64,000 bases of DNA. It comes from Anadara kagoshimensis. Its lineage: Eukaryota > Mollusca > Bivalvia > Arcoida > Arcidae. This document shows, piece after piece, positions 4,280-48,700 of this stretch. The notes under the pieces were generated by a model, which saw nothing but the letters and a program-made list of their open reading frames with translations, was not told the origin of the DNA and searched no databases. Each line of letters opens with the position of its first letter. Within the stretch, counting starts at the first letter, position 1. Made by a program: the position numbers and the translations under genes. The stretch is taken from NCBI GenBank assembly GCA_021292105.1, contig CM037864.1, positions 45,429,109-45,493,108 on the forward strand, written 5' to 3'.

Positions 4280-7200
4280 CTGATAATAATATAGAAAATA
4301 TACACATAATTATTCAAATAGTAACAGTAACATCTAAAATTTACACAAAGACTAATGTAAAATTTATAATTTTGTATTGTCTAGGATGAAATCATCAGCT
4401 GACAAAATGCAGTAAAACCTGTATTTCAAGAACTTCCACATAACTTAAGTATAAACACCACTTACATCACATATGAAATAAAGTCAAACCTGTGTATATA
4501 GACCATCCCAGCACCTAAGAAATACATCAGAACCTGGCCCACTGTTTCACAATCATTCCTAAATTTAGATTTTCTAAATTTAAATTTCGCAAATTTTGAC
4601 AATCAGAACAACAAATTAACATTTTTTGAAAAAACTGAATACAAATTTTATAAGCTTGAAATTATCTTCAAAATGAAACCTTAAATAACTCATTCTCATA
4701 AAAATTAACAAAATTATTAAGATTAGAAATTTGACAAATTTAAGTTAAGGAATGATAGATGTTTGTAGTAACAAAAATAGTGGAAGACATTAGAATATAA
4801 TTCTTGTTAGTAAGCTTGGCCCCGGTTTAACAATCATTCTTTAACTAAGATTTTACTTAACTTAAATTTAGCAAACTTTTTGGAACTACGAATAAATATT
4901 TTTGTCAAAACTAAATGCAGATGTCATAAGCTTGATATAATCTTTAAAATGACACATTAAATTCCCTAATATCTTAACAGTTAACAAAATTATAAAGGAA
5001 ATGAAGGAAAATCTTAAGTTAAGAAATGATTGTGAAACCATGGCCTGGATATATAGATCAAATTTCACTTGTAACTGTCCACATTAACAGTTTGGCTATA
5101 AGATGGAATTTCATGAGTGACTTTTGAATTCCCGTTATTATGGCAGAGTATAGATCAAATAACACTTTAACCCATGAGTCCACATTAACAGTTTGACTAT
5201 AAAATGGAATTTCATGAGTGACTTTTAAATTCCCGTTATCATGGCAAAGTATACCGGTAGATCAAATATCACTTTAACCCATGAGTCCACATTAACAGTT
5301 TGGCTATAAGATGGATTTCATGAGGGACTTTTGAATTCCCGTTATTATGGCAGAGTATAGATCAAATAACACTTTAACCCATGAGTCCACATTAACAGTT
5401 TGGCTATAAGATGGAATTTCATGAGGGACTTTTCAATTCCCGTTTTCATGGCAGAGTATAGATCAAATATCACTTGTAACTTAAGAGTCTACATTGACAG
5501 TTAGGCTATAAGATGGAATTTCATGAAGGACTTTTGAATTCCCATTATCATGTTATCATGGAAGAGTATAGATCAAATTTCATTTGTATCTCATGAGTCC
5601 ACATTGATAGTTGTGCTATAAGATGGAATTCCATCAGGGACTTCTGATTTCCCATTATCATGGCAGAGTATAGATCAAATTTCACTTGTAACTTTCAACA
5701 TTGACATTTAGGCTATAAGATGGAATTTCATGAAGGACTTCTGAATTCCCATTATCATGTTATTATGGCAGAGTATAGATCAAATTTCACTTGTAACTCA
5801 TGAGTCCACATTGACAGTTAGGCTATTAGATGGAACTTCATGAGGGACTCTTGAGTTCCAATTATCATGGCAGAGTATAGATCAAATATTACTTGTAACT
5901 TAAGAGTCCACATTGACAGCTGGGCTATAAGATGGAATTTCATGAGGGACTTTTGAATTCCCATTATCATGGCAGAGTATAGATCAAATATCACTTGTAT
6001 CTCATGAGTCCAGATTGACAGTTGGGCTATAAGATGGAATTTTCATGAGGGACTTCCGAATTCCCATTATCATGGCAGAGTTTAGATCAAATATCACTTG
6101 TAACTTAAGAGTTCTCATTAACAGTTTGACTATAAGATGGAATTTCATGAGTGACTTTTGAATTCCCATTATTATGGCAGAGTATAGATCAAATAACACT
6201 TTAACCCATGAGTCCACATTAACAGTTTGGCTATAAGATGGAATTTCATGAGGGACTTTTGAATTCCCGTTATAATGGCAAAGTATAGATCAAATATCAC
6301 TTTAACCCATGAGTCCACATTGACAGTTAGGCTATAAGATGGAATTTCATGAGGGACTTTTGAATTCTCATTATCATGGCAGAGTATAGATCAAATATCA
6401 CTTGTAACTTTCAACATTGACATTTAGGCTATAAGATGGAATTTTATGAGGGACTCTTGAGGTCCCATTATCATGGCAGAGTATAGATCAAATATCACTT
6501 GTAACTGTCCACATTAACAGTTTGGCTATAAGATGGAATTTTATGAGGGACTTCTGAATTCCCATTATCATGGCAAAGTATAGATCAAATATCACTTTAA
6601 CCCATGAGTCCACATTGACAGTTAGGCTATAAGATGGAATTTCATGAGGGACTTTTGAATTCCCATTATCATGACAGAGTATAGATCAAATATCACTTGT
6701 AACTTTCAACATTGACATTTAGGCTATAAAATGGAATTTTATGAGGGACTCTTGAGTTCCCATTATCATGGCAGAGTATAGATCAAATATCACTTGTAAC
6801 TCAAGAGTCCACATTGACAGTTGCGCCATAAGATGGAATTTCATGAGGGACTTCTGAATTTCCATTATCATGGCAGAGTATAGATCAAATATCACTTGAA
6901 ACTTAAGAGTCCACATTGACAGTTAGGCTGTAAGATGGAATTTCATGATGGACTCTTGAATTCCCATTACTATGGCAGAGTATAGATCAAATATCACTTG
7001 TAACTTATAAGTTCACATTGACAGTTAGACTATAAGATGAAATTTCATGAGGGACTTCTGAATTCCCATTATCATGACAGAGTATAGATCAAATATCACT
7101 TGTAACTTAAGAGTTCACATTGACAGTTAGACTATAAGATGGAATTTCATGAAGGATTCTTGAATTTCCATTATCATGGCAGAGTATAGATCAAATTTCA

Positions 7201-10200
7201 CTTGAAACTTAAGAGTTCACATCGACAGTTAGGCTATAAGATGGAATTTCATGAGGGATTCTTGAATTCCCATTATCATGGCAAAGTATAGATCAAATAT
7301 CACTTGTAACTCATGAGTCCATATTGACAGTTAGGCTATAAGATGGAATTTCATGAGGGACTTTTGAATTCCCAATATCATGGCAGAGTATAGATAAAAT
7401 TTCACTTTAACTCATGAGTCCACATTGACAGTTAGGCTATAAGATGGAATTTCACCGGGAAATTAAAAAATTCCCATTATCATGGCAAGGTATAAATCAA
7501 ATTCAGCTTGGTACTTATGATTCCCCATCATGATGATAGAAAAATATTAATATAAAGATCATATTATACTTGGACCTTATGTCTGATGTCAAACGATCCA
7601 GGGTTTAAGTATCAGATAAATAAATTATTATTACATGGATATTATATTTTCCTCAAAACTCATCAACAAAAACCATACAAGTGATGTTTATTAATAACAT
7701 TCCTTTAGTTTCAAATGAAATCAATAATATGTTACTGTATACTAGTCTATAAAAAATTCAATTAATTTAAATATGATAAGCAATTTATTATCAATCAGGT
7801 TCACCATTGTACCACATGATACACTTTAACATTTGTGCGGAACACTTATTTCCGAGAAATATGGAATAACATAAGATGATGTTTTACCCTAAAACTGACA
7901 TTATTTCAGGAATTTGCCATTTTAAGATTTTCCAAAATGTTCCACATAAATATTAAGATGTACTGATTCCTGCTACAGTAACGGACCTCATTGTTCAGAA
8001 ATAAACTACCCTTCATTTTCAGATCAAAACAACAAGAACATCATATGGATAAAAGCCTATTTCATACAGTTTTTGTGTTATGCTTCTGACAAAATTTTAA
8101 GTATGAAAAATAACAAAGGGCAATAACTCCTAAATTATGGAAAATAGAGCTATAGTGCTTGTACACTGCACTTCTCCTTATCAAGGTCTACCTAGCAATG
8201 AAGTGTTTCATGTTGACATCTCTAACAGTTTTTGTGTTGAGCTACGGACTACGGTAAATATTTTATGACGGCGGTCAAACGAACGAACTAATGCTTCATA
8301 TCAACAATTGTGAACTTTTTTTTATTTTTTATAATCAAGAATAGTAATCTCTGATCCAATCAGGATTTTACAGAGAAAAGTGAAATTAATGGCTGAGTTG
8401 TCAGACAGACATGTAATTGTAATGTGCAGGCTGTTGCAATATTCTTCTCATCATTGTGTTCTATTTAATGTCATATTATCATTAATTGATTTATTGCACT
8501 TTGGATTACATCTGATAAATTCTTGACAAATTCCATTGGTTAAAAGGTGTTAAATTCTCAATACTGAATTGCTTTTTGCACTCATGAAACAAAAATTCTG
8601 AATTCATTCAAAATATGTGATAATCATTCAACTTATGCTGGCATTTAGACAAAATTTAGAATAAGTTCAGAACTTCAGACAAAATTCTGACAACTTTTTT
8701 TCATAAGGCTAAACCACATGTATTTATGTAAAATGTTGATGATGTCATCAAGGATAATGAGGTCATCCTTATGTTACTATGGCATATAGTGCATTTAAAA
8801 TAGTTTTGGCATTTATCTCTGAATAGGTGAAAGCTGTCACCCCCACCCCCATTTTAAAATTTAGAAAAATTATTTTTCACAGAAAATTTCATTAGCAAAA
8901 CAAAGTGCACCTTATGCCATGTGGATTCTTGATATTTTGTTAAATATAACATTGAAAAAAAAACATTGTATCGATCAAGCTTAATTTTTTTTATTTCAAA
9001 ACCTGACAGTAACACAAATTGCTTCAAATTATACCTTCATAACATTCATGTTTGGCACTCAAGTAGTTTAAATCTTTGAGGATTAACGATTCTTCGGTTA
9101 TGACAGCCTATTAAATTGGACAAATTACTATGTGTGGCTTTTCAGCACACAGCATAATGATTGCAAGTCTAATGTCAGTCAAATGAGTAAAATTTGAGTG
9201 AAAGCCTGGATCAATATGGTTTTAAATTGGAATGGAGTTAGCTTAAAATGCTTGATTTTATTGACATCTTCATCAAAATGTTTGTCAGACTACTAATCCA
9301 TTTTCATTATTATGTCATACAATTGTTAAATTTATCCCTTAGTTTTCAAAAAAAAAAAAATAATAAAAAATAAAAAAAAAATTGATGTGTGCAATTAAAA
9401 AAACCAAATGAGAATTGATAGTAGAAAAACAACACAACCTGAACTGTGGTATTAGCTTGTCCTTATACACCATACAGTGACTAAAAATTATACATTGATG
9501 ACATATCAGGCTATATAAATTTTTATATCGCCTTTGAAAATTAATAAAATTAAAGCTCTAATGAAATCAATGATGTAAAGCTCAGGTACACATTACTGTA
9601 CAAAAAAACCAAACTTTATAAAAAATTAATACCAGTGCACATAAACATCTGTGTCAGACATTACTGCTGGACATCAGTGTTTAAGAGGAACGAGCTGTTT
9701 TCTTGACGGGCCCAGTCGCAATTACTGACGAGTTTCAAATGACAAACAATGCCAAGTTTCCCAAATTTTATGTGGAATTGATCATTTTGTCAACATCGAG
9801 GAAATGCATATGTTGGCATCATACACAAAAATCACACATTCTGCATTTAAATTCATATTTAATTTTTACCCCTAAAGTGTCTCTTGAGAGCCAAATACCA
9901 CCCCTCTTGCCCACAACATGTACAAGGGTTTAATGTTTTCCTGCAACCTTGACCTTTCCAATATGATCTTGGTTCAAAATGGACAATGAAGATTATTCAT
10001 GTGAAGTTTGATGGCAGTTGTCCAAAGCAATTATGAGATATGGCTGGGAAATGATTTTTCTGATATACTAGTACTTTCCCCATGACTGTGACCTTTCTTA
10101 TATGACCTTGTGGTTCAAGGCTATGACATACCTTTGGACTATGAAGATTATTCATGTGAAGTTTCATGACAGTCGTCCAAAGCAGCTATGAGATATGGCA

Positions 10201-13200
10201 TGGACGCAATTTTAGATGGACGGACAGACAGACAGCCACCCAGACACACAAACTGACTGATGGACAGGACAGACAGACAGACATGGTGATTTCTATAAAC
10301 TTCTCCTCGAACTAGTTTGCGGGGGGTATAAAAATGCCTATTATTTGGAGTGACAGTGATTTGAATAAATACATGTTGTTCTTGCCATTTTAATTTTCAA
10401 GCCAGGATGTGAAGTACTACTGCAGACCAGTTCTAATCGGTTTCGTTGAACTGTAGCACTAAAATTTTAAATTTAACATGGGTTCCATATTAAGTAATGT
10501 TAAATATGAATTTTACTTGATGAATGATTTAAACAAAATCATAATTAAATAAATCTTAGTATACTAAAGTAGATTTTGCTTTTAAGTTTATTTTTTTGAA
10601 TGTGTCTCAATTTTTCGTGGTTATGAAGCAGTTCTCAACCTATTGATACACCTCTGATTTCATTGATAATCTTTGTGGTAAAAAAGACTGTGAAGGCTAT
10701 CTTGCACACGGGTTGCATGATTAAAATTTCTTCCATATCTGCTCATGTAAGATAGGGTTTTCCCCAGGTGAGACACCAAATATTGGCACTAAAATGGAAG
10801 AAAAATAATCTATTTTAAGTTTATCCATGTAGAATAGGGGTTGAACATTTCTGGTCAGAGACTTGGCAAGCCTCGTCTCTGACTGAAATATTCAACCCCT
10901 CAGGTGAGATTTCCCTATCCTACATGGATACTCATAATGGATATTTATAATCTTACACTGCTCTTTTCATGGTTTTTTTTATCTGGGGTGAAAGAATGCA
11001 CCAATGTATGACTTTATGCAGCTTTATATATCCTATCTGTATAAATACATAATTACAGGACAAAATCAGGTCTAACTGCAGATAACTCTCTCACTAACCT
11101 TCTGGATAGTAAGGTATGATGTGTAGAACAAAGACTTTTTAATATTATAGAGATGACGGTGTTGAAGCAGCAATACAAGATATGACACCCTAAACAAAGG
11201 ACATTGTCCATGTGGACTTTGAATCTAATGGTGCCAAAGATTACTGGTATATACCGGTAAAGATTTACTGTCAGTCTCAGTTACTGTGTTTATGGCAGTA
11301 GAAATATCAGAAAATTTTCATAGAAAATTCAATGAATTAATGTGGTTCCCCACTGTATATGATGTGATCAACACTCTGTAACGTTTGTGTGCATGACATT
11401 TTGGATTATGTCACAAATTACAGCAGTAATGTTGTTTTCTTTGGAAAGCATGAACCAATATGATTCCTTATCTAATGGAAATAATTATTTCCCAAAAACA
11501 TTAGGGGGCTAACTTGGTACAGTGGCAAACTCATTAAATCAAGTTTGGTATTTTTTCATTACTTAATCTAATCAAAAACACACGTACTAATCCATTTCCG
11601 AATCACAATTCAGAAGCAAAGTAAAAACTTTGGAACCGACAAGTTAGGTTAGACACGTGAACTAAGTGATAATGAAAATTGTTATGTTCAGCATCATTTA
11701 CTATAAAATATATCTATACAGAATAAAAAATTGCCAGTATAGGGATTTAACATGCTAAAATTCAGGGCCAATGTTTGCATAATCATGATCCTTTTGGGGG
11801 TACAAAGTTAAATATCACATATAGCATCATTTCTGGTGTAAACCACCATTTTTTGACAAGAAAAAATACCCATTACATCAACACTTTGTACAGAAATATT
11901 TTGTACTAATCTATGATATGCATAGTAATTTCAAGTTACAACTAGACTCAGGTAAATAAACAATAACAAACTTCATTCAATTTATTAATTTGAGCCGTTG
12001 TGCTGCCGAGTGCTAGTTTGAACCCTTTCGGTTCCAGTTACATATTTTAAATTTCCATGAGAATTTTGCATATTTTGTTGTCACAAACACAGTGACATGG
12101 ACAGTATAATTTCATATTTCACTGTCACAAACACAGTGACATGGACAATATAATTTATGTGCTTTATTACTACTCACTTTATCCATTCTCCTCTCAACAT
12201 CTTCTGGATTTTTTTCCAGCAATATACGTACAAATTTGTTACTAATTTCTTCAGGTAATGAATACGCATAATGTAGCGGATATCGATTACTCTACAAGTA
12301 TAAAGGTATACAAAAAATTAAAAATCTTTAAAATGGATTTTATGTACCATATATTATTATTATACCACTTATAATGTACTATTGTGCCTACAGAAAACTC
12401 TTCGATGTACAGCATGCGAAAACCCAAAAATTACAAGGATAATAATGATTTTAATCAAATAAAGTATGATCACAGCTGGTCACCGATTGCTCATCAAATT
12501 TCCGTACAAAAAGAAAACAATACATACTTTTATACTTTAGATTTCTATATGTATCCCCTCATTTCCAAATTCAATCAAATATATGGTAAAGTGGAGGATT
12601 GTTATTATGACATAGACAAATCAAAAAGCAATAATTCTGGGATAATGTCTATAAAAATAACAATCAGTTATCAATGTTGTTCATCCACTAGAAATAATAC
12701 TGGTAATAATAATAAAATAATGCATTTATAACATTATATACCATTTTTCAAATGTTAAACCATGCAGTGCATAATTCTGTTATAGGAATCACTTTTATTT
12801 TAAAAATGTGAAAATAGCCTATAGGAATTTCTGAATCCCTTTTAAATTGCTCTTTATTTAAATAAACCAAATTTGATTTAATGCTTGTTTTAGAAAATTG
12901 TCATGAAATTGAATTAAAATAGCCAAAGGGTTGTTTAAAATCATGGTATTATTTATGCTGAAGTTCTTATGGAACACTGAACAAAAAAACATGTATTCAA
13001 ATGTCATGGCCACATAAAACAGTTTTCAGGTAAGAAAACAAATGACAATTAGTTGAGATCTTTATGAAAAAGAAATGGTACACCTGTTACTTTTATCTGA
13101 GGACAGGCCTCGGTTTGTCTTGTTATAAAGACAAGACTTTACTTGTCCTTTATTTACTGACATACATTCTCAATGCTAAAATACTTTTTCCACAAATAGA

Positions 13201-16200: not shown

Positions 16201-19200
16201 CATAGAAAATTAAATGTACCTTAAAAAAATACTAAATTCAAAATGATATCTCAAAGTTTTCAAACTTCATTTGAAAATTAAATGTTGAACTTCGAACTGC
16301 AAATCTGTCGATATCGACAATTCATTTGAATTAAAAATTTTGGTGGAAAGTAAAAGTAAATAACAATAGCTGAAGATATAAAATAAACTTACTTTTTTAT
16401 CGTTATAATACAGAGCACATATATTGCTGGTTATTAATAATCGGCAATACGCATTGCCATGCTCATTCCAATGAAATGTAAATAACAGAATCTGAAATTC
16501 TTTGATGAGGTAAAAAGTCAGTCATCTGGCGTGGACTCAGGTGTTTTACCAATCAAGCACCTGCAGGTCGAAATTGGATGAAGAGATTACTTAACTGATC
16601 GTTGATTACTGATCTTGTAACATTTTGCGTTCCAGAAGAGTTGTTTCGTTTCGCTCTATTATAGGTCGTGCACGATAAATTGGCACATCCGGGTTTTTTC
16701 ACATTGTAAATAAACATTGCAGCTCGTCCAGTAAATGTTTTGTTATGGCCCATAGTTCATTACCGGGATGGAGGTTGCAAGTTCGATGCTGCTTTATTAC
16801 ATATATTTTTTCTTCCAAAAAGTAGTTTCAAATGCGTTTGATGACGACCTCATTTGAAATAAATAATCAAATATATATTCATTTTACTTTTTTTTTTTTA
16901 AATCTATTTATATCATACTATGAAACGAATGCTGAAAATGTTAAATAGCTATGCAAGAATTATAATTTTATTTATTTTTTGATAATTGTATTTATTTATT
17001 ATTTTACTTAAATTATTTTATAGCCAAAATTCATATTTTTCAAGTTCCGAGTTGGTTGGTTACAGTAAAAATTTCATCAGCTGTATACGTGGTCTCTTCT
17101 TCTGTCATAGTTGTTTCTTCTTCAGCTGTTACTGTCGATGCTTCTTCTTCTTCTTTGTGGGTTTCATCATCACTTGAATCTGTATCTTCCATGTTTATAA
17201 CAATTTTTTCGATCTCTTCGTCGACGGCAATGTCATTTTTCCAATATTCCAGTTCTATTTTATGCACATGTTCCACATAGTCAGGGGGCAGATCTAAAAA
17301 AGAAGCTTATTTATTGACCCCCCTTAACTTTTTTGTTAAAAGCAGGAACCATGGTGGATCTTATTGCCCTATATGTACTTAGTTAGGCTAGGTATGTTTC
17401 CACCTTGACTTTGTCCGTTTAATGAAAATATGGCTGCCAATCCAAGATGGCCGCCAAAAAAGATAATTTAAGTATAAAAATTCAATATCAAATCAACCAC
17501 TAAACCATTTAAGTTGAAATTTGGTATTTTATCAATTAAATATTTATACTAATTTTCTGTGAATAATAATTGGTTGTAAAATCAATATGGCTGCCATTTA
17601 CAAGATGGCCGACGTATGATCATTGTGCTGCTTTTTAAATCAAATACAACAAAGGATGTCATTATTTTATGACATAAAACCAATGTATTGCATTTAATAT
17701 ATATGTACTTAGTTTGGCTAAGTATGTTTTCATCTTGACTTTTTTCGTTCAATGAAAATATGGCTGCCAAATCCAAGATGGCCACCAAAAAAGATAATTT
17801 CAAAATTAAAATTCAATAACAAATCAACCGCTTAACCTTTTGAGTTGAAATTTGATATTTGATCAATTAAATATTTATATTAATTTCTCATGAACACACT
17901 GCCGTTGTAAAATTCAATATGGCCACCATTTCTTAAGATGACCGACTAATAATCACCGCGCTGCATTGTTTTAATAAACCAATATATTGAATTTGTTAAT
18001 ATATATACTAGTTAACTGACTCCTTCAAAAGCGTTTTACACCGGCATGATTCACATCCACAAACAACTGTGCAGTAGAATGTGTTTTTCACAATAATGAA
18101 ACTGCACAAACATCACAAAGATTCAACAATTCCACATTCATAAATATTGTAGGTCAATTTCCCAACTGCTCATAAGAGTTAATGGTAGTTTTTACTAGTA
18201 AATAAACACAGATTCCAAACCATTTCCTGATAATTAATGTGTTTAATGTGCATGACCGGAACACATCTTGTAACGTGGCAATGACGGAACATATGACAGT
18301 GAAGTTCATGAAGGATTTTGCTGAGGGTTGGTAGTTTGAAATAGATAACAAACAAAGGAACCTACAATTGATAACAACATTGCCGACTTTATCGTATATT
18401 CATAAGCTTTTAGTTCAGAGTTTCAGCTCTGTAATTTGTTTGAACACTTCCCATGCTGGAAGCTCAATCACTGTCTGTGATCAAATACCAACGGATCTAA
18501 ATGTTTTTTCATCTGATATTTCTTATAGACTCCTGGTATCTTATTTGTTCTAGTACTCACTTAAACCTTACTGTTTAGTTGTGACACAAGAGAATACAAA
18601 CATCTGATCATTAATCCGTTATTCTATCCATCTCACTCTAAATAAGCAACAAGTCTTGAGTCTGTGTAATTATAGTTTGCACAAGAACCTGATGTATCTC
18701 GCCCTGAACTCAAGTATTTGGATCCGCGACCCCCAAATAACCACTGACTCCTTGCCAAGTACTTCCTTGTTCAACTCATTTGATATAACACTAGTCAGTT
18801 AAGTCTTATTCTCCCCCATATTTATAAAATTGTTCAAATTTTCAGGCAACATGGAATTACATCTCTCTTCTGCATTCTTTAAATCTGTTTATACAACGAT
18901 GCAAACTGCCAACAAATGAATTGTTGGTGCAGGGATAGCGAAGCCTTGGCTTATTAAGGCCCTCATAAAGTCTTATGGCTGTCATCACAATATAGTATGG
19001 TGACTCTGTATCCGAAAATACTAGGGATATGTGGCGTCCCAAAGTTCCATGTTCCTTTCTTTCTAAAAAGTGTGGGTTGCTCAATTATCCTTCCAGGTCA
19101 CCTTGTTCTCACTTCCCTGGTGGATGTTCCTGTGTTAAACTTCATTTGAAGGTTTCAAGATTTTTACTTTGCTTCATAATTGTGATTTTGACATGGATTG

Positions 19201-22200
19201 GTATGTTTGTTTTGAATTTATTCATTTCGTCTGGTTCAAGCCTTTATAAAAGCAAACCATCCTCTCTTACACTATTTTCTAAAACGACACTTTGTGGTTG
19301 CTGCGAGACAATCTTCAAAGTGCATATTGTGGTTTTCCAATGCTGTCAACCAATGTCGTACCATATATTATCGTACAGGTCTTTATATTTTTTGGTAGCA
19401 TTATGGAGTTTCAAAAATCAAAACAATAATAGCTAAATAATATCATTGTGACAATGAAAGGAGGTAAGGGTGATAGTGATATACTGGACAAACAGATGTA
19501 ACTGTAGTCTAAGTAACATCATCAGGTAGTTTACGACCAATCAACAAACATCTGATGTAGACACAGGTCATCCAGAAATGTTTAGAAAAAGGTATAAAGA
19601 TTTGTACAATAATAGAGAATATGACATTGGTTAACAGCATTTGGAAAACACCAATGCACAAACCTTTGACAACTTTGCAGATTTGCAGATAGCACAAAAT
19701 GTCATTTCAGGAATAGCGATAGAGTAGCTGTTTTGTGATGTTATGTTTGATTGATATTTTGAACATTCTATAAAGTCTTAACAAGAAATAAATCAAAACC
19801 AAACACAACAATCCATCCACAAATCATAATCATAGAGCATTAAAATCAGTAAGAACTGGTAAGAATAATTCGATTTAAAGAATAATACATGTACTACAGA
19901 ATAGAGATGGAAAGTTCAAATTTGAAATAATTCAATATACGGTACATATTGACGAGGATAAAGAACTAATCTGATTTTTTTTAGTTTAATATCAAATGAG
20001 ATAAACCAAAAGGGTGTATGGCAAACAGTTGATGGTTTGGTTAGGGTTTTTTGGATGCGAATACTACATTCTCGAGTACAGGGTGAGGTAAATCAGGTCT
20101 TTGAGCAAATCATAAAGAGGCAGACATAAGATTTGTTCTTTGTGCGAGAGAAGCCAAAGAAACAGATAATGATCAGACGCTTATCCATTGTAGCGATGCA
20201 GATTTTTTTGTTATGGTCTTGGTTTTTGTTTTACAATTAATGTTTTGGAAATAAAGATTGTTACTCAATCCTATATTTATAGCTGTTAAATTGTTGAACC
20301 GGGGAAATATGTTATATTCTGATGATACTTATATAATAAATATAAGGGATATACGTACAGAATATATTGCTGCAAGGTGCTTGTGGATGTTAATCATGTT
20401 GCTGTTGGACCTGTTTGAATGTTTGAATAAGCGAGAGGACAATTTTTTTTATTGCAGACATCAAAAGTCATAGCTATTAAATTAATTCAAATGATATTTA
20501 TTGAAAACTTGAAAAATGATTCGGCTTCGTTATTTAAATTATTTATTTTACATAAAATAAGTTTAAAGAGCAGAACTGATAATATTTTCACATAATATTT
20601 AACATACACACATTAGTTTTATGTCATAAAATAATGACATCCTTTGTTGTATTGGATTTAAAATGCAGCGCGATGATTATCAGTTGGCCATGTTGAAAAT
20701 GGCGGCCATATTGAATTTTGCAACCAATATTTATTCATGGAAAATTAGTATAAATATTTAATTGATCAAATACCAAATTTCAACTGTAAAGGTTAAGTGG
20801 TTGATTTGATATAGAATTTTTATACTTAAATAATCTTTTTGGGTAGCCATCTTGGATTTGGCAGCCATATTTTCATTAAACGGAAAAAGTCAAGGTGGAA
20901 ACAAACCTAGCTTAACGAAGTGCATATATATTAAATGCATACATTGGTTTTATGTCATAAAATAATGACATCCTTTGTTGTATTTCATTTAAAATGCAGC
21001 GCAATGATTATAAGTCGGCCATCTTGCAAATGGCAGCCATATTAATTTTTCAACCAATATTTATCCATGGAAAATTAGTATAAATATTTAATTGATAAAA
21101 TACCAAATTTCAACTAAAAAGGTTTAGTGGTTGATTTGATATTGAATTTTTATACTTAAATGATTTTTTTGGCGGCCATCTTGGATTGGCAGCCATATTT
21201 TCATTAAACAGAAAAAGTCAAGGTGGAAACATACCTAGCCTAATTAGGTACATATAGGGCAATAAGATCCACCATGTTTCCTGCTTTTAACAAAAAAGTT
21301 TAGGGGGTGCCACATTTTTGAGATCTGCCCCTGACTAACACATTTTTTCCATTTCTCAGTTGATATTTCTTTCAGGTGTTTTTCCATAAGCTGCTGTACT
21401 TCAGATAATTTAAATTTAAAATTTTTGGAACCAACATATGATTTTAGATCAGCCCAAATTAATTCAATAGGATTTAATGCATGATAGGGTGGTAATCTTA
21501 AAATTTTCCATGTCCATGTTCTTTTAATATCTGATCATTTTGTAAGATGGTGGAACAATTTGCTGTTTGCATATCGTAAGCAGCTTTGGGCATACCATGT
21601 CTTCTGTAAATTGTACGTTGTGTTTCCTGAGCCATTCTTGGATGTCTTTTTTCTTCCATGATGTTGTTAGTTTTTTGTCTTCTTGAACGTTATGATATGA
21701 TGCGTTGTCAACCACAAGTACAGAATTTGGTTCTAGATTTGGAATTAATTTTTCGCGAATCCATTTTATGAAGTTTTCAGCATTCATTTTATGGTGATAA
21801 GCCCCAGATGATGACTTAGCTTTATATATGAGGCTAGCATTAGGAACAAATCCCTTTTTCTGAACCAGCATCAACCACAATTAAACGATCGCCTGCTCCA
21901 ATTGGAATGCTTAAACCGTTCCCATCCAGCTGCCAACACTTGGATACAGTATGCGATGAGTTTATATATGTTTCATCCATGTAAACAATTTTGTAACCAG
22001 TTTCTCTAAGTTTCTTTATTTCGCGAAGGTAGTTTATTCTTTTCGAAATAATATCTGGTTTTTCCATAAGAATTTTTCTGTTAGTGCTACATTTTTCCAA
22101 TTAAAGCCCATTTATTTTAATAATTTTCTAAGAATTGTTTGACCCTCCTTAAAGTCAATTTTGTTAGTTATTTCCGAATGAATAGAACTTATGGTTGGAA

Positions 22201-22935
22201 GTACGCGTTTATTCAAATACATATTAATTATTGTTCTTCTAATTACACAAATATCAAAATCATCTATAAATATTTTGTCTGATCTCTGTTTTCGGTCATG
22301 TTTGGTTTCTATTCCAAGTGATTTTAGCCTTGACAGAGTTCTCCTTGACAGACCCGTCATAGCACTTGCTCTCTGCAAGGGGCAGCTGATTGGATTGACA
22401 AGGCGTTTTTGTTTTGCCTCATCAAAACAATAATTTACGACATTCATGGCTATTTGGTTGCCTGTTAACTTTATATAATCTTTCTTTTTTTCAGACATCT
22501 TTACTATTTTCTACAAAAATCACACGTGTTGCCTCGTTTTTGCTTTAAGTATATATCTATTATACTGTTCAAACTCATTCTCACATTAACTGAACTAATC
22601 AACTCATCCGCTTGTTCTAATTAATCAGCTAATTAACATCTCGTCCTTTTTGAAGTTTCAAACGCACTCATTGAATGTATGGTGTATTGCATTTAAAAGG
22701 AAAAGGTTATCATTTGTCGAAAATTTCAATTTCAAAGCAATTCCAAAATTTTAATAATTATTTTGATTTAAATTAATTATCATATAGGAAAGCATTTCTT
22801 ATGGTTTTATGGGCACAAATTTATTACTACAATTGTAATAAACACTGATAAACTATATAAATCATTTTAAATCTACTCTGACATTATTACTGCACCTGTG
22901 TAATATCCGACATTTCACTTTTTTGGCTAAAGCAT

Positions 22936-22970
<35 letters not shown>

Positions 22971-24720
22971 TTTTAACTGTTAATTGTTGAATGCTACGTA
23001 AAGTTTATAATAACAGGGGGGGGGGTTGCCAATTTATTTTAAAAAATTATTAAGTTGACTAAGTTGATACGCTGCATTCGTAAATATTTATTGCAAACCT
23101 ATTATTTAAGTTTATAATCATTATCATTATTTTTTAAACAAAAGGAATGATCATTAATTCGATTTGAAAAAGTTAAAAAAGAAAAAAATGGACCTCGAAC
23201 CCCCTTGTACCAAAACTATACTGTCGACTTATGACTGACAGGCATTACCACTTAACCAAGGATAAGTATGACCTATCTTGTCAAATATAAAGTTGTTAAT
23301 GAGAAGCACCTTCTTGCGTTTTAAGACAAATTGTTCCACAATTACATGTAATATCAAAAATATTACACAACATTAAAATCAAATTATTAGAAGATTTAGA
23401 AACTGCCACATAAAATACTGTGGTTGAAAATTACGCGTATAAATTTTAGTGTATTAAAGTGTTCATTTCAACAAATTTTAAGGTGTAAGTGCAACATGCA
23501 TATTGTCGAGTTGTCCAAGGTCCGTGTTTTTTTGGGTCCAAGTTACAATGTTTATTTACAAAATGAATAAGCCCGGATGTGCCAATTTATCGTGCGCGAC
23601 CTATACATTCAGCGAAATCTGTATCATGGCTTCAGCTTGTGTTTTGTTTACAATGACTGGCCACAAAACATTCTATAAATTGTATTGAAGCAAAAGAAGT
23701 TGAATTTTCATCAAATTTACACCTTCGAGAAGTATTTATTGTTTGAGCCAGCGGAGGTATTCGAGCTATCGTAGTTCGATCAATTGAGATTTATTTACAT
23801 ATGATTTAATAGGAATTTGGTCGGGACCGGCAGATGCCTTAGAGTTATCTGGGGTATTCCAGGCATCGGCGTTCAAGTTCTACTGTATATATAGGGGTTG
23901 TCGGTGATAAAAAATTTTGCATTAAAATCATACAGTTTTGACATTGTACAGTTTTTGTAAATCTCTTCCAACTAAAGGGTTAAGCTCTTCTTTCATTTAC
24001 TATAATAACAGACTAAAAGGAAGTTTTATAAATAATATTTAACATTTGAAACTGAAGTACCTGATTTTCCACTTTTAATTACAGAAAGCAGAATCTATTT
24101 AATGAAATGCCAGGTAGAAAATGATGACCAGGTGTAACTTTAATTAATTTACTAATAAGTAAAGTCAGGTAACAGCATACCTGTATCACATTCTAAGGTA
24201 ACTTAGAGAATTGAGAATTTTATCAAAGTGAATGAAGAAAAGGAACAAAGATATATATATATATATACTATTGACAAGGATTCCACAATAATCAAAGAAT
24301 TTCCCAATTAACAGAAAAAGTCATACAAAATTTACAATATAACACAACTGTGATAGATGATTAATAATTTCTATAATTAATTACCCCGGTAGTTGTATCA
24401 GGTGTCTCTAAATTATAATAGGAAATTGGTAAAAAGACAGAAAATACTATCATTTTAAAGTCATGATTAATTCTGAAGCTATTTCAATGGAACAGTGACT
24501 AATATATCTATATAGAACTAGAAAACAACAGGTAAACAAATCAACAATCTCAAAGTTTAAATCACCAGGGATAGGTACCATAGTCATTTAGAATAAGAGA
24601 GTCTTAATAAGCAAGCTCATACCCAACAGCTCACATATAGGGTCAATTATTTCTGTGAAAGTTTCAAAGGGCATATCCAAACACCTTAAATCTTCTCTAA
24701 TGTGTGTGTGTGTGTGTGTG

Positions 24721-30700: not shown

Positions 30701-33700
30701 AATGGCCAGTCCAAATTATACATGAACAGCTTTGCCGTCATCCAATTTGGAATGGCCATTGTTGTTCATACTTGCATCAATAACGAAAAAAAGGATGTCA
30801 TTTCTTAAATGAAAAATTAAATAAACGATTCATGTCAACAACTAAAATCAATATTATTTAAAAGTTTAAAATTCCAACAGAAAATCTGTATCATCAGTTA
30901 ATAAAGAAAAGTGATTGTTTTTACTGATTGGTAACAGTTTTTTTGTGTATACGGATCATTTTGTCACTGATTACTCATAAGTTGTTACGGCTTTCAATTT
31001 GTTTGAAATCTGTTGCTAATTAATTGATGTTTGTATGATGATGATGATGATGATACAGCTATGTTATAAATGATATACAAACCTCATCTTTGATGTTGAG
31101 AAGATCATTCTCTCTGTAGAAATGACAAACAAACTGTGGTAGACACTGTAGGTTCTGTATAATATACTGAAACAAAAAACACCATCAAATCAAAACTAGT
31201 CTTAATATCAGTTTAATATACTGAAAACATCAACAACACCAAAATCATCCACACAAGTGAACTCTATCATGCTTCAGGAGTAAGAACAGAAAAACCTATA
31301 TATAAAGTCCATCCATTGGACCTAAGCAAACTTGTATAAAAAGACCAACTTATGGAACCCAGGTGTAGTAAAACCTGTATAAAAAGACCACCCAATGGGA
31401 CCCAGGTGTAGTAAAACCTGTATATAAACCCCTTATGGGACCCAGGTGTAGTAAAACCTGTATATAAACACCTTATGGGACCCAGGTGTAGTAAAACCTG
31501 TATATAAACACCTTATGGGACCCAGGTGTAGTAAAACCTGTATATAAACACCTTATGGGACCCAGGTGCAGTAAAACCTGTATATAAACACCTTATGGGA
31601 CCCAGGTGCAGTAAAACCTGTATATAAACACCTTATGGGACCCAGGTGTAGTAAAACCGGTATATAAACACCTTATGGGACCCAGGTACAGTGAAACCTG
31701 TATATAAACACCTTATGGGACCCAGGTACAGTAAAACCTGTATATAAACACCTTATGGGACCCAGGTGCTGTAAAACCTGTAAATAAACACCTTATGGGA
31801 CCCATGTACAGTGAAACCTGTATATAAACACCTTATGGGACCCAGGTGTAGTAAAACATGTATATAAACACCTTATGGGACCCAGGTGTAGTAAAACCTG
31901 TATATAAACACCTTATGGGACCCAGGTGCTGTAAAACCTGTATATAAACACCTTATGGGACCCAGGTGCAGTAAAACCTGTATATAAACACCTTATGGGA
32001 ACCAGGTGTAGTAAAACCTGTATATAAACACCTTATGGGACCCAGGTGCTGTAAAACCTGTATATAAACACCTTATGGGACCCAGATGCTGTAAAACCTG
32101 TATATAAACACCTTATGGGACCCTGGTGCAGTAAAACCTTATATAAGCACCTTATGGGACCCAGGTGCTGTAAAACCTGTATATAAACACCTTATGGGAC
32201 CCAGGTGTAGTAAAACTTGTATATAAACACCTTATGGGACCCAGGTACAGTGAAACCTGTATTTAAACACCTTATGGGACCCAGGTGCTGTAAAACCTGT
32301 ATATAAACACCTTATGGGACCCAGGTGCTGTAAAACCTGTATAAATAGACACCCCATGGGACCCAGGTAAGTTAAACCTGAGTAAAAAGACCACTCCATG
32401 GGACCCAGGTGCAGTAAAACCTGTATATAAAGACCACCCATGGGACCCAGGTACAGTAAAACCTGAGTAAAAAGACCACTCCATGGGACCCAAGTGCAGT
32501 AAAACCTGAATATAAAGACTACCCATGGGACCTAGATGCAGTTAACCTGTATATAAAGACCTAATGAAACCCAGGTGCAGTAAACCTGTATTAAAAGACC
32601 TAATGGAACCCAGGTGCAGTACACCTGTATATAAAGACCTAATGGAACCCAGGTGCAGTGAAACCTGTATATAAAGACCTAATGGGACCCAGGTGCAGTA
32701 AAACCTGTATATAAAGACTACCAATAGGACCCAGGTACAGTAAAACCTGTATAAAAAGACCACCAATGGGGCCCAGGTGCAGTAAGACCTGTATATAAAG
32801 AGCACCTACAGGACCTTAGTACAGTATATACTGTATGCAAAAGCAAGCCATGGGTCTAATTACAGTTGAACCTGTATAAAGACAAATTATGAGGCTTTTG
32901 TATATTGTAGTCAGGTGGTCTTTATATATAGCAGTACCTTTTTCGTTAAAACACGAAACAAAGGGACCATAAGCCATTGGTATTAATGGATATTAGTGGT
33001 CTTTATATAGAGGTAGCTGTTGTAACATGTTTTAATGTATATATGTATTTTAATTTTTGATGATAATTATTATCTCTGAACTCGTATAATAAATCATTAT
33101 GGCTGATGTTATTACCACGTATTTTTATATACCTGTATTATACTTCCTACATTGATCGATTAGGATTAAATAGACAAATTTAGAATTAAATCCAATTTAA
33201 GTGAGATTTGTAAAAATAGCCTTCCAAAAAAAGCTGTCTTAAATGATGGACAATCTTACTGTATGGTGAAAACAAAACGGCGGATCTAAAAATGTATTTA
33301 TGTTTTTGATCAAAATTATGTATTATTTGACCCAATATGACATATTCCTTTAATTATCACTAAATTGCAGTAAGTATTCAAGTCATTTATAACATTATAA
33401 AGCCCATATATATAAACGTAATAAGAAAATATGTGGCAATAACACATTTGTTATTGCCACATACGGGGGCAATAACCATTTCGAATCATTATAGATGCTT
33501 TTTAAAGAAAATATCTGATCTAAAATTGTACCATATATGACATATGCATTACTCTACCAATATCTTATATTAAATGTGACAAGAAACCATACAAATTTTG
33601 TTATGTGTTTACGGCCTTTGTTACTAGATTGTGTGACCTATAGATTTAACTAGGTGTTTAAGGAAGGGAGATAACTTCTGTATCAATATCAAATTGGATC

Positions 33701-45700: not shown

Positions 45701-48700
45701 GATGATTAGAATGATTAATAAATATGTCTTATTTATGACAGAATCACAAATTTTTTAATTTTGAAAAATCAACTAGTAAAATACATTTTTATCTCTATAG
45801 TGGAAGGGAAAGAAGATAAAAATTGACCGCTTGGTTGATGGATTCAATGGGGTTTACATCCTAGTTAATAATATTACACTAATATTGGGGCATAAAGACA
45901 TAGGTGAAGTGCAAGAAATTTTTTCAGTGTGTTCAGGGAAGCTTCTTAAGCAAGGCTACACTGACGATGCCACATGGCATAGGTTTTAAGGTCTCCACTG
46001 AAAGACTAATGACTTTATTTCTAAAAGCTGAGTGCTTGGTGAAACAAGAGTCACTAGTACATTGTAGTAGTACTCACTACCTATTTTAAGTCTTGGTCAG
46101 ACTCAGCCAAGTCTAGAACCCTTGTCTCATACATGGAGCAAGTACTGTACAAACTGAGATACTGTGGTGGTATGAAAAAGAAGGACAATGGTAAAACTAA
46201 TATGGAGACATCTATATATATATTATTGTCTATATATAATTGTGCTCCCTTCTGGAGCACCGGCCTCACTTTCCTGGTGGAAGTTCATGTGTCTAACCTA
46301 ACTTGTCAGTTTCAAAGTTTTTACTTTGCATCTGGATTGTGATTAGGACATGGATTAGTATGTTTGTTTTTGACTATATACCTCACTTCCCTGGTGGAAG
46401 TTCACGTGCAACTTGTCAGTTTCAAAGTTTTTATTTTGCATCTGGATTGTGATTCGGACATGGATTAGTATGTGTGTTTTTGACTATATACCTCACTTCC
46501 CTGGTGGAAGTTCACGTGTCTAACCTAACTTGTCAGTTTCAAAGTTTTTACTTTGCATCTGGATTGCGATTAGGACATGGATTAGTATGTTTGTTTTTGA
46601 CTACCGGTATATACAGTCATACTGATCAAAGTTCATCTAAATATGATCTGCATTACAGTTAGTTACCAGGTGCATGGAGGTTAGTACTTACGGTAAAGGT
46701 ATCGGAGTCAGTATCCTATCTAATTAGGTAGCGCAAATTGAGTTATACCGAGACACCAACATCATTGTTTTGATTATAATGATGACCTTTGTGTACTTAC
46801 ACAGTCTTTTTCTGAGTGTTCTGATATGTCCATTTTGGTGTGAAGATGTTTGGCTATTTCTTGATCAATGTGTGGTTGTAAAGCTTTATGAAATAATGGC
46901 ACAGTGACATCAGACTGAAACAAACAATAACAAACATATCATTATACAGGGTCGTCTTCAGTGAAGTAGTGTCAGATCAAAATGTACACATTAAAACACA
47001 TAAAATTATACAGGGCTGTCTGCAGTTATAGCACATGTGGCAGTGTCAAATGTAAAAGTTCACAATAACATTCAAGATCATTTTAATACTAGTAAACAAA
47101 AATCAGACTTCGGGCTCTGTAAAATAGGTCTCAAAAAGTTAATAAATTGGAGTCCTAAATACCAAGTCTGAAATACTGAAGAAATTTTAAGACAAAGAAG
47201 GATAACTCCTATAAAACTACACTTATCTAGTGTATTTTTTTCTAATACCAATAACATGTACTTTAAATTCTTATTCGATTATAAAGGGACATGTTTACAT
47301 CAAAATCTGTCTATAAGCTATCTACTGTATGTCAAACAATATATATATGGGACCTTTGTGAACAGGTGGCCTTTTAAATATTTGTATAAAGAAAAAGGAG
47401 GGTCAAACTTATTTAGTCAGGTGATCTTTGTAAAGTAGGAAGTTTTGTTTGAGTATAACCACCAGCCATCATAAAATGGTCAACGTTCTATAATTAGATA
47501 ATCTATGGTATCTTTAGATAATATAGTAACTTACTGTCTCCTCTTCCCGAACTCGTATATGGTTTATTTTGGCATCGTGTGCAAGTAACAAGTTTACAAT
47601 CTCTAAATTATTGGCTTCAACAGCATGTGATAGTAAAGTTTCTCCCTTCATATCCTAAAATAAACAAAAAAGAATTCCACAAGTGGTTGTAATACAAGTT
47701 AAACCTTTGTGCATCCAACAATATAGGAAAAATGCAGCGGCCAAACTGGGACTTGAACCCTGGACCTTCCTATACTAACTGTATATGCTTTACTGACTGA
47801 AATACCAACCAAGTTTGAAGCTGGTCCACCACATTTTCTAATTCAACTTCTTTAAATTGAAACCACTGGGTTCCACTCTGGTTGGCCACTTTCCAGATTC
47901 AGACAAGTCCACAAACTGTAACAGGAAAGGGAAAAATGCAAAGACCAAATTTGAGCTTAAACCTGGGACTGTCCAAATACTGGCAGGATTCTCTATCAAC
48001 TGAGCTACTATATCACCTATTGAGTCTGGCCTGCAACATACCGGTATATAAATATAACCCAACTTAACTTAGTTCTTATGACATCATAGTTGTTAGCCAA
48101 TATTGACAACAACTTGTAGGTGTTGATAAAACCAGCTGAGTAAGATCAGAAAAGAATCTAGTCTATACCAGAATTGAAGAATTATTTTAACCCACTAGAA
48201 AAGTTGTCACAAAATTGAATCTTACCCTAAATCTAACATTTATTGTAAATCCTCGTTGTGTTTGTAGAATCCTTCTTGTTGTCTGGACATCTTCACATAA
48301 CACTGCATGAATTAATTGCTGTTGAAAACAAATATTTAGAAAAAAAAAATTAATAAATTTTAATGGTAAAATAAGTTTTAAAAATACAATTTTTTGAAAT
48401 CTTTTAAAATTCAAAATTTAATTTGTGCAAGCTAAATTGGGTCTAAAAATCTTTCATGTTGGGACATACCAATTTGCTGTAGCATGCAGAATAATTTATG
48501 ATTTACTGGTGTCATAATCTGACCAATTAAGCAAAATAATGGTGTCAATATTGGGCCCAAAAATGAACTAAAGGGGCATGGGTTAAACAGTTCTCCATTT
48601 TGTAAAGTTACTTTTTGCATGTAAATCAAGAGAATGTATGATTTAATATTATTCTTCCCACTTGGGTCCAAACTGGGAGCAAAAATAAATCTAAGGTCTG

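Follow-up and report, generated by a model that had tools for sequence, protein, structure and literature searches.

A long-armed transposon nested in the transposase gene of a putative Sailor (DD82E) element of Anadara kagoshimensis

Sailor is the DD82E superfamily of IS630-Tc1-mariner transposons (PMC8533490). In the parts of its description drawn on here, target duplications are mostly TATA, the D-E spacing ranges from DD78E to DD111E, and the ends usually start with GT or CC, a usual trait that is no requirement (PMC8533490). The same source gives the protein motifs YLDET, MDNA and LNPIEL (section 4.2) and counts molluscs among the hosts with many Sailor copies (section 3.2).

The window, namely the whole stretch of 64,000 nucleotides that was analysed (G000:C8:45429109-45493108, in a searched assembly of 1.115 Gb and 36 contigs), carries an element that fits this superfamily and is interrupted by a second transposon. 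Almost certainly, a Sailor copy settled first at a TATA site and a long-arm element, presumably mobilised in trans, later entered its transposase gene. One transposon inside another is here a matter of ordinary nested transposition. Nested insertions abound in repeat-rich genomes, so no view is changed by this one. The locus provides a clean, base-exact case in which the pre-insertion site is verified by uninterrupted sister copies.

The interrupted Sailor element and its relatives

The host element, a putative Sailor (DD82E) ITm transposon, extends from 16664 to 23601 on the minus strand and measures 2,875 bp after subtraction of the insert and of one ACA. Its left terminal inverted repeat (16664–16724, plus strand) is 89% complementary to the right one (23541–23601, minus strand), as defined by inverted-repeat pairing; the pairing amounts to 65 bp at 89% when the flanking TATA is counted in. 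The target duplication delimited by the end scan is TATA at 16660–16663 and at 23602–23605. The first-pass annotation had presented the host as a TA-flanked element with inverted ends: the outer element and its ends stand, but the duplication is TATA. TATA is also found on both sides in 21 of the 23 other Sailor loci that have both ends of one element (36 scanned), with L027 and L038 deviating from it on the left side. The first bases in the end scan are GGTCG at the window Sailor end and at most other loci. In locus L019 (positions 775–795) two Sailor ends lie back to back with TATATA alone in between, as if the TATA duplication of one Sailor copy had served as target site for a second.

The window transposase gene was delimited by tblastn with the protein of L018, an intact relative from the same genome whose ORF codes for 483 aa as listed, with GTG as first codon. 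The N-terminal and catalytic part is found at 21341–22498 (minus strand, frames -1 and -2), where it is broken by a stop and by frame shifts, and the C-terminal part, severed by the insert, at 17040–17276 (minus strand, frame -3). Relative to the L018 protein, the lesions besides the insert are an in-frame stop after TILRKLLK, a segment shifted in frame and a further frame change between 21536 and 21507. These lesions may predate the insertion or postdate it.

L018 (1236–2687, minus strand) belongs to a Sailor family, loci L016–L038, that shares about 85% identity with the window copy. At least 16 matches to the 483-aa query, among the 94 protein matches listed (88 of 882 candidates scored), cover it in full length without a stop at 97–100% identity, one of them starting at residue 2. 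On account of these whole-query, stop-free matches, the L016–L038 family looks young and recently active.

The L018 protein features a DDE_3 domain (Pfam E 1.5e-15), 81 residues separating the second D from the E, and the catalytic motifs YMDET, VVDNA and HADLNPIEL. Judged by eye, its YMDET, VVDNA and LNPIEL are close to the published Sailor motifs. The family in this genome is thus like Sailor in its TATA duplication, its ends of about 60 bp and the DDE_3 domain (L018), and the 81-residue spacing lies inside DD78E-DD111E, the range given in the consulted parts of the Sailor description (PMC8533490). It is unlike the usual Sailor in that the window end starts with GG rather than GT or CC, a trait not taken here as defining, since the source calls it usual. 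The window copy differs furthermore from an intact Sailor by its interruption and by being broken at several points. The domain, the spacing and the duplication make the host element fit Sailor/DD82E. The earlier reading of the host as DD82E-like is consistent with these features, with the precision that the L018 spacing is 81 residues, which the consulted parts of the description still accommodate.

Sister loci and the order of insertion

The site occupied by the insert was compared in 36 non-window Sailor loci (L002–L008 and L010–L038), taken from 8 of the 46 matches of one search and 30 of the 41 matches of another, the window being one of each. The insert is absent in 33 of the 36, and these 33 all span the joint. 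The other three are L007, which ends 19 bases past the joint, L012, which begins beyond it, and L014, which has no match at the joint and adjoins L003, being probably the same copy.

The predicted empty site reads TTCCACA-CATTTTTT. In the ten nearest spanning copies, TTCCACACATTTTTT is found exactly in three (L010, L006 and L011) and with a one-base difference in seven. The window flanks, once joined, read EKWKKCVEHVHKIELEYWKN in a single frame; L010 encodes EKWKKCVEHVHKIELEYWKND uninterrupted across the joint and L018 has there the related reading EKWKRCVEHVKKIETDYWKND. The alignment of same-genome copies across the junction, put forward as a check with the first-pass annotation, therefore returned the joint foreseen, exactly or with one base changed, and the protein continues in L010 as had been predicted, and similarly in L018. 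The claim that removal of the insert restores the frame holds at the joint, where L010 gives the reading, but not elsewhere in the gene, where the stop and frame shifts remain by comparison with L018.

Since the sister copies show an uninterrupted site, with TTCCACACATTTTTT in the nearest ones and EKWKKCVEHVHKIELEYWKND in L010, the order is established: Sailor first, long-arm element second, as had been proposed. The reverse order, in which the long-arm element would have been there first and the Sailor sequence would have come later around it, has a probability close to nil. The two Sailor halves combine into a single continuous element that has one pair of ends and a single TATA duplication, and the site lacks the insert in 33 sister copies. 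What speaks for the reverse order is the greater divergence of the insert from its relatives, compared with that of the host copy. The window terminal branch measures 0.021 in the Sailor tree, built on 1,815 bp with 13 other rows, and 0.036 in the insert tree, built on 1,660 bp with 29 other rows, while strictly private window sites number 22 of 1,808 in the host and 24 of 1,659 in the insert; shorter first trees had given 0.041 for the insert versus 0.019 and 0.026 for the host. At face value a naive clock counts against the Sailor-first order. Cut-and-paste elements take their old private mutations with them, which is a likely cause, in addition to the presence of only 29 insert relatives in the tree. 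Dating by divergence was set aside as evidence on the order owing to these carried-along mutations and to the unequal sampling (13 versus 29 rows), and the empty sites in the sister copies override its signal. A bold reading of the insert being more privately diverged than the host copy is that old, diverged copies could stay mobile long after their birth.

It may also be considered that Sailor and insert arrived here together, as a single composite unit, the nesting having occurred elsewhere. The intact outer TATA duplication and Sailor ends are equally expected from such a movement. However, among the non-window Sailor loci cut out, all 33 that cover the site lack the insert, and a composite about 7 kb long whose transposase is broken would depend on help in trans. 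A joint movement is accordingly held very unlikely, and insertion of the long-arm element into a Sailor copy already resident at this site is preferred.

The long-arm insert and its 3-bp target duplication

The insert is a long-arm DNA transposon with TAGTCAGGGG ends and no evident transposase gene. It spans 17278–21337, and the 4,060-bp insertion announced for these positions proved right to the base. The ACA announced on its two sides is present at 17275–17277 and 21338–21340, the left and right copies of a 3-bp target duplication. The outermost bases of the element are TAGTCAGGGG at the left and CCCCTGACTA at the right; more extensively, it starts with TAGTCAGGGGGCAGATCT and finishes with AGATCTGCCCCTGACTA, which are a near-perfect inverse of each other. 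The left arm of 690 bp (17278–17967, plus strand) has 88% identity to the inverted right arm of 676 bp (20662–21337, minus strand). A unit of about 330 bp recurs in direct copies in the left arm (17370–17886, plus strand) and in the right arm (20595–21256, minus strand). No coding gene is evident in the insert, whose longest ORF, the only one scanned, has 135 aa and a best Pfam E of 0.092. Exact matches to the 18-bp end number 323 in the genome (155 forward and 168 reverse), while the control of the same 18 bp read backward occurs 0 + 0 times.

A repeat of about 106 bp lies inside the insert (19108–19213) and is also present three times in tandem at 46265–46597 and once inverted at 11575–11662. 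Satellite-like tandem arrays in the window are found at 3–1948, 2412–2885, 5052–7528 and 31349–32799, with periods of about 166/333, 25, 102 and 40 bp.

Flanks were compared in 22 insert copies, window included, of which 17 had both ends located and five lacked one end. Of the 17 two-ended copies, 13 show a 3-bp direct match, versus 20 of 272 wrong-partner comparisons, while a 4-bp match was seen in 0 of the 17. One of the 13 duplicated copies (L083/L084) depends on an end with five edits. The duplicated triplets are ACA, ATA (four times), TCA, TAT, TTA, TAA, TTT, AAG, GTT and CTA; they are A/T-rich without a single pattern. The four two-ended copies that have no 3-bp match may have decayed or recombined. 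Taken alone, the ACA match at the window insert is weak evidence, because 20 of the 272 wrong-partner comparisons also give 3-bp agreement. What makes it decisive is that 33 of the 36 non-window Sailor loci run through the site and that the insert family duplicates 3 bp elsewhere.

These duplications also bear on whether the joint might be an assembly chimera. Both joints coincide with the exact termini of a family with 3-bp duplications at other places, and the Sailor halves rejoin to the base, which is not expected of a chimera; this origin is extremely improbable. In the account retained, a Sailor/DD82E transposon inserted at a TATA site, and a 4-kb transposon with long terminal inverted repeats later entered the Sailor transposase gene in its 3' part. 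The insert, which shows no transposase gene, would have been moved in trans by a DDE-type transposase from elsewhere. A 3-bp staggered cut at ACA, followed by gap repair, would have doubled the ACA.

Comparison of the insert with described transposons

Several known groups were confronted with the insert. Transposons of the hAT type have CAGGGG ends and an 8-bp duplication. Assignment to hAT was rejected, as TAGT/ACTA is part of the element and there is no 8-bp duplication beside CAGGGG in the window. PIF/Harbinger elements have a 3-bp duplication of sequence TWA and a PF13359 transposase between their ends; the insert-family duplications include ACA, TCA, TTT, AAG, GTT and CTA. No PF13359 match was seen between insert-family ends in a comparison of low power (69 of at least 70 hits on C1–C6, with 150 listed in all, against 100 of the 323 ends). 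Three PF13359 hits lie at most 25 kb from an insert-family end, all on its outer side (69 hits, 100 listed ends).

The search for an autonomous partner of the insert took out one widely spaced pair of ends, on C5, and found no such partner. The two exact ends of this pair, at a distance of 13.4 kb, were rejected because they belong to two long-arm copies side by side with no ORF of at least 200 aa. The adjoining long-arm copies L089 and L090 are found at G000:C5:28634900-28648500, the second being internally rearranged.

Foldback-type transposons such as Galileo and Tetris have long, internally repeated arms. The insert is unlike them in its 3-bp duplication and its TAGTCAGGGG ends, and no transposase is linked to it here; it is like them in its long arms with tandem units and its non-coding interior. 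That the 4-kb family with TAGTCAGGGGGCAGATCT ends, 3-bp duplications and 330-bp arm units is moved by the transposase of an undescribed superfamily is improbable, if conceivable. Note that this genome houses both a Sailor family with open genes and a long-arm family, a coexistence that could be of use in classifying the long-arm family.

In the consulted parts of a published survey, IS3EU has TA..TA ends and usually a 6-bp duplication (PMC10045372); this assignment was rejected, as 6-bp flank matches number 0 of 17. The same parts give a 3-bp target duplication for Zator, 3 or 4 bp for AcademX and 0 to 4 bp for the PHIS group (PMC10045372). No transposase is tied to the insert ends, and the insert is like all three in the length of its target duplication as given there. 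According to the portion consulted of a second report, bivalves are nearly the sole hosts of Academ and Zator among the molluscs studied (PMC10294476). Within what the consulted parts of the survey describe, AcademX, Zator and the PHIS group are all compatible with the 3-bp duplication of the insert family.
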